Assembly (NCBI GenBank): GCA_029259945.1
Contig: JAJDEF010000037.1
Location: 58,169 to 122,168 of the forward strand
DNA length: 64,000 nucleotides
Direction of reading: 5' to 3'
Origin: Planctomycetota bacterium
GTDB lineage: Bacteria; Planctomycetota; Planctomycetia; Pirellulales; Lacipirellulaceae
The notes under the pieces were generated by a model. That model was not told where the DNA came from. It was given only the letters and a program-made list of their open reading frames with translations, and made no database searches. A program made the position numbers and the translations under genes. Below, piece by piece: positions 14,421 to 14,870 of the stretch; position 1 is the stretch's first letter; each line of letters begins with the position of its first letter.

Positions 14421-14870
14421 ATCCGGCTAAAAATATCGATGGAATTCCAACCACCATTCCCCGACAATAGCCTATCCCCTGCTCTTTGAAAATCTAAATC
14501 ACGAAGCCCCGTTGGGTGCCACTGTCTGGCTTGCCCAGCAGTGCGATACGGGTACCAGGGTTCCACTGCTGGACGAGCCAGACAGTGGCACCCAGCCCTA
14601 ATAAAGTCACCTACGCTGGACAAAACAGGACAAAACCCCATCGACTTTTGTCCAAGCAAAATCTCTCAAAGCCTAACATCAAAACGTTTAAGGAAATATC
14701 AGCGGACAAAACGACCGAATATTGTCCGCCAAAACCCCAAACAGGCGATTTCGTGCCAAAACTCGACCTCACAAAAACAGGAAAACCCTACAAACGAAGC
14801 CCTAACCACCGAAAGAGGCAGCCACTTTTGTCCATTCTGTCCAACAACCCCCTGACAAAAATCCCACCTC
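14421..14870. repeat. Multi-hairpin intergenic element, copy A (GGACAAAA element)
   Basis: Near-parallel sequence with 60516-61021: shared long palindrome, GGACAAAA...TTTTGTCC hairpins, CGAATATTGTCCGC and CCCCAAACAGGCGATTTCGTGCCAAAACTC blocks. Confidence 0.85.

Follow-up and report, generated by a model that had tools for sequence, protein, structure and literature searches.

What kind of sequence fills two similar intergenic spacers of the 64,000-nt window, as we call the whole stretch of DNA analyzed here? The two copies, A and B, have rpmF, an acyltransferase gene, recG and a BON-domain gene as neighbors (rpmF and recG were identified by Pfam, and the BON-domain gene scores below Pfam's cut-off), and their gapless alignment reveals 75% identity over 273 nt and 90% over 128 nt. 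A preliminary description of this DNA regarded them as a two-copy, multi-hairpin element that could be a structured RNA, a multi-site protein-binding element or a non-autonomous mobile element. All the parts that it named in the first spacer were recovered in place (Table 1). The start of the element, a promoter-like 5′ module followed by a boxA, had not been named.

Table 1. Coordinates of the element and its parts in the window.
Feature	Position	Strand	Remarks
Copy A, whole interspersed element	14421..14870	+	~27 related genome places (BLASTN); 35 profile matches to body
5′ module, promoter-like, GGCTAAAAATATCGATGG ... GACAATA	14425..14469	+	−10-like at 14463-14469; kept in other copies
boxA-like motif GCTCTTTGAAAA	14481..14492	+	23/30 copies versus 0.28 expected
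Nested 82-bp palindromic repeat TGGGTGCCACTG...CAGTGGCACCCA	14513..14594	.	Separate repeat family; arms 14513-14543 and 14564-14594
3′ body with GGACAAAA/TTTTGTCC boxes	14600..14864	+	Alignment of 26 copies; box conservation 96% versus 78%
Boxes 1-3, GGACAAAA-CA-GGACAAAA ... TTTTGTCC, first hairpin	14618..14653	+	GGACAAAA..TTTTGTCC at 14628-14653
Boxes 4-5, GCGGACAAAACGACCGAATATTGTCCGC (GCGGACAA..TTGTCCGC), second hairpin	14702..14729	+	
Unpaired conserved block CCCCAAACAGGCGATTTCGTGCCAAAACTC	14735..14764	+	Alignment of 26 copies
Boxes 6-8, TTTTGTCC-A-TTCTGTCC ... GACAAAA, terminal hairpin	14826..14861	+	
Copy B, recG / BON-gene spacer	60519..61018	+	Layout as copy A (promoter, boxA 60589-60600, palindrome 60621-60702, body); orthologous spacer short in G008

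The element is far more abundant than a pair of copies. In the genome from which the window comes (G000, a 3.48-Mb draft), BLASTN found further copies, for a total of about 27 places, with E-values down to 1e-105 for the other copies. A scan with a degenerate core pattern located 32 places, and searching with a profile built from the body yielded 35 matches, fragments included, some of which are cut at contig ends. The genome thus contains at least 32 copies, or 35 with fragments, whose identity to copy A is 65-85%. Having more than 30 copies and conserved blocks outside its hairpins, this is indeed a defined element rather than a simple REP, as had been proposed, and the earlier failure to recognize a named family also holds, given that Rfam returned no match to the element at gathering or relaxed thresholds but only spurious miRNA hits, mostly to palindromes. 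HEARO and other large Rfam non-coding RNAs are likewise multi-copy, structured and intergenic, from which the element differs by this lack of an Rfam match. A coding sequence was rejected because the alignment of the copies shows reading frames broken by stops and by a 2-nt indel between subfamilies; the element encodes no protein.

The copies are built on one plan, in which a sigma-70-like promoter module at the 5′ end is followed by boxA, a variable middle and a body of about 270 nt. The body consists of eight copies of one 8-letter word, GGACAAAA/TTTTGTCC, in both directions, with neighboring boxes spaced by about 9-10 bp. The boxes are the best-conserved columns of the body (96% versus 78% elsewhere), and for this reason the element is possibly a multi-site protein-binding site. 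The same contrast bears on the view that the element is what remains of an old transposon family, decayed, inactive and without a function today. Such a relic would account for the divergence between copies, for their disruption by nested repeats and for the lack of any enzyme found; yet decay should be even, whereas the boxes are far better conserved than the spacers, and boxes and promoter are conserved in another species too. We therefore consider a relic unlikely.

The long palindrome (TGGGTGCCACTGTCTGGCTTG...) that the preliminary description counted among the parts of the element is present in copy A, but as a separate nested repeat of 82 bp: it occurs alone at about 13 further places in the genome (BLASTN), is missing from several copies of the element and flipped in others, and its loop is found in both orientations. 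In other copies, the variable middle is filled by other repeats (GGGTGCCATGC.., GGTAGGTGG.. and AGCCACAGAG..). Repeats of the ACCACAGAGGACACAGAG type lie in both orientations at positions 50263-50322 and 58142-58220 of the window, and a unit resembling them is nested mid-element in several copies. Three copies (L045 at C14:14.2k, L135 at C23:54.3k and L137 at C12:172k of G000) end what read as Rhs-like/YD-repeat frames, two of them interrupting the Rhs sequence at the same point.

The promoter-like module is composed of GGCCAAAAA, a −35 element, a 17-18 nt spacer and GATAAT or GACAAT; in the relatives it reads GGCCAAAAA-TTCGCA-17/18-GATAAT. When loci were fetched using the 3′ body alone, 25 out of 40 carried the module at their 5′ end, where a GGCC-A-rich stretch precedes GATAAT, GACAAT or GCAATAA. 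G007, another genome of the genus, has 36 matches to the pattern GGCCAA-N8-11-TCGCA-N16-18-GATAAT, compared with 0 for the reversed control, and G011, G001, G008 and G009 have a few each. In G007 the promoter is kept while the stretch that separates it from the body varies from copy to copy. In the host genome, 23 of 30 copies have a boxA (GYTCTTTGRAAA) at a distance of 10-22 nt downstream of the −10, compared with 0.28 expected from shuffles, keeping in mind that the copies are related and that these matches are not 23 independent events. BoxA-like motifs are also found in copies of G006, G008, G011, G001 and G005; those of G007 that we looked at lack one, hence boxA is not required everywhere. 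The element boxA matches that of the host 16S rRNA leader (GCTCTTTGACAA / GCTCTTTGACAATTTG) and, save for one base, the published consensus GYTCTTTAANA, which derives from gamma-proteobacteria (PMC5725501). The conservation of promoter and boxA, both recognized by sequence match, argues that the element is probably transcribed.

A promoter-like module could also belong to a 5′ leader or regulatory element controlling the downstream gene, and 18 out of 29 downstream genes, as called by a simple hexamer model and not by a full gene finder, are co-oriented with the element. The remaining 11 face it, however, and several of these have their 3′ end within about 30 bp of it. Since orientation relative to downstream genes is mixed, the element is not the leader of particular genes, and we regard this alternative as highly improbable.

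Would the transcript be a structured RNA? Two whole copies fold better than their shuffles (z-scores of −3.2 and −4.5), which together with promoter and boxA supports a structured RNA indirectly; covariation within the host genome, on the contrary, does not. RNAalifold run on the 26 copies of this genome yielded no compensatory pair in the predicted fold. When double changes were counted in the named structure itself, we observed four such pairs, which lie at the margins of helices or within the short first one; shuffles gave as many, although slid controls paired much less. Because the hairpin arms are invariant within the genome, covariation gives no proof of an RNA. Across species, one hairpin retains 5-10 contiguous pairs in all 10 elements compared and, in a few cases in G009 and G001, still pairs with an altered word, which hints weakly at pairing in an RNA and would equally fit symmetric DNA sites. 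The altered box words are GTGCAAAA and GGCAAAA in G001 (L233 and L234) and CGCAAAA in G009 (L278 and L282), the CAAAA core being kept; they possibly correspond to a change of recognition specificity.

We then consider how widely the element is distributed. Neither a DNA search nor the core pattern gave a match in other genomes of the family. In genomes of the same genus, the body profile detected diverged multi-copy families, with 33 copies in G007, 26 in G011, 20 in G008, 10 in G006, 5 in G001 and 3 in G005, and none in seven others, one of which, G009, contains two loci with the promoter pattern. The family of G007 amounts to about 36 copies in all. The copies of the relatives follow a common plan of promoter module, optional boxA, variable middle and boxed body, and G007 has 29 complete copies of 301-514 bp that extend from GGCCAAAAA to a CCCC-loop-GGGGG hairpin. 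The core pattern gave 35 hits in 84,980 GTDB genomes, none homologous beyond the word itself; GenBank phages and PLSDB plasmids gave no match to the element, and a literature search on the word found nothing relevant. These repeats constitute a real, genus-level family of promoter-bearing interspersed repeats, which is apparently undescribed.

The position of the element differs between species, which favors a mobile or amplified non-autonomous element and makes this the best supported of the three readings offered initially. The spacer behind xerC contains the element in sense orientation in G011 (L217) and in antisense orientation in G007 (L242), and contains none in the host genome; the opposite orientations suggest two separate arrivals. 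An orthologous spacer lacking the element was also found, as the recG/BON region measures 97 bp in G008 (recG 87% identical) versus 720 bp here, but the short spacer retains a GGACAAAACCCGTT stretch and may therefore have lost the element by deletion, as opposed to never having been filled. The 29 complete copies of G007 revealed no target-site duplication: in their flanks, the best match at k=4 and k=5 was no better than permuted, and that at k=8 was marginal (0.358 versus a permuted maximum of 0.353). Terminal inverted repeats are also absent, the ends being GGCCAAAAA and CCCCnnnGGGGG in G007 and CCGGCC and GACAAAACTC in the host genome, and we found no autonomous copy or linked mobilizing enzyme.

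These features set the element apart from several known repeat families. MITE-like repeats, such as BOX, RUP and SPRITE of pneumococcus, Correia of Neisseria and RU/ERIC of enterobacteria, are similarly small, non-coding, modular and palindromic, with tens of intergenic copies, and Correia elements have promoters. The element differs from them by the lack of detectable terminal inverted repeats or target duplication, by its own 5′ promoter and boxA, by a body made of eight copies of one word and by its lineage. The many dispersed non-coding copies would fit a DDE-derived MITE, whereas the missing terminal inverted repeats and target duplication do not. The pneumococcal repeats and their transcription are treated in PMC3049150. 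REP and REPIN sequences mobilized by RAYT are likewise dispersed intergenic palindromes, and an IS200-type (Y1/RAYT) transposase using the palindromes as substrates would be compatible with a genome rich in palindromic repeats, with Y1 genes in every genome of the genus and with the lack of target duplication. Y1 genes are, however, equally present in the element-free genomes G003 and G010, and the element does not track them; beside four Y1 genes, among them the best one in the host genome, we read other palindromes or none, and never the element; and the element, which measures 300-500 bp and has a promoter, a boxA and conserved blocks that are unpaired, is much longer than a REP. This origin is very doubtful.

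Our preferred reading, to which we give a probability of about 0.5, is that of a non-coding, non-autonomous interspersed repeat that was amplified independently in several species of a single planctomycete-like genus, would be expressed as a structured, antiterminated RNA and would spread in trans. Each copy would be a stand-alone transcription unit composed of a sigma-70-type promoter, boxA and a hairpin-forming body built on one word. BoxA is an RNA signal bound by NusB/S10 that lets polymerase continue when the RNA is untranslated. A protein reading the GGACAAAA boxes, in DNA or in RNA, would copy or move the element in trans. Copy number, architecture, conservation pattern, differing positions and lack of coding are observed directly, and we infer transcription, this factor and the role of mobility in the spread. 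More speculatively, and in our opinion rather improbably, the element might be an analogue of SINEs: a small RNA gene with its own promoter and rRNA-type anti-termination, spreading through its transcript or through hijacked phage replication or recombination machinery that uses the boxes, the words of which have diverged between species. Bacteria commonly contain small interspersed repeats, but few of these are known to retain a full transcription-start module with boxA while species diverge. Should the transcript prove real, an RNA family that is both abundant and unannotated would be present in much of a genus, and it would serve as a test case for the multiplication of a protein-free element. 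A promoter and a boxA followed by repeated hairpin-forming words also recall a CRISPR leader and array, and boxA occurs upstream of CRISPR arrays. The element differs in having neither spacers nor a regular array, and in being dispersed with the same body in every copy.

The main rival to this antiterminated RNA repeat is a replication-type or recombinase DNA site, because phages have arrays of this word next to primase genes. According to this interpretation, a replication initiator, an integrase or another DNA-binding protein would bind the clustered boxes of the body as double-stranded DNA, comparable to the iterons of phage origins or the arm-type sites of attachment sites, and the copies would be decoys in the chromosome, or relics or satellites of a phage or plasmid origin. 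The body would fit such a site in that it packs eight copies of one word into 270 bp, closely spaced, in both directions and with invariant arms. GGACAAAA-GGACAAAA-TTTTGTCC arrays were found 7 times in IMG/VR contigs versus 1 for the reversed pattern, and in 24 contigs using a laxer pattern; many adjoin Prim-Pol, DUF5906 or other primase genes, and some adjoin integrases. However, the host genome has no Prim-Pol gene, and no box array lies within about 1.5 kb of any of its five integrase-family genes. The outside arrays have the word in common with the element while the rest of it is missing, some bacterial array hits resemble ordinary palindromic repeats, and a DNA site leaves the conserved promoter and boxA unexplained. 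We thus consider this interpretation possible but less than probable.

Integrase arm-type sites of an attachment site were rejected, as no integrase gene is linked to the boxes. As for a phage replication origin with iterons, no initiator or primase gene flanks the two copies in the window. The word resembles the Tn7 TnsB site (GACAATAAAGTC), an identity that was dropped since there is no terminal TG and no target duplication, and it lacks the end required of a DnaA box (TTGTCCACA).

The phage arrays beside Prim-Pol/DUF5906 contain the same GGACAAAA/TTTTGTCC word, in tandem and inverted, and differ from the element in adjoining a replication gene and in lacking the promoter pattern of the relatives, which had no hit in IMG/VR. 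Contigs L128, L129, L132, L176, L182, L186 and L188 have arrays with a spacing of about 10 bp, most of them beside primase genes. The primase-linked arrays are likely replication origins with a common iteron word, and this shared word is a starting point for finding the protein that recognizes it. In bacteria, L095 and L118 (one Lachnospiraceae genome) and L109 and L111 (one Prevotellaceae genome) are REP-like intergenic palindromes with GGACAAAA, three of the four containing GGGACGG/CGTCCC. Finally, in L102, L106, L116 and L123 (Alistipes/Bacteroidaceae), GGACAAAA arrays are located just past the 3′ end of one gene family, identified by Pfam as mnmE in L106 and by blastp as relatives of it in the three others.
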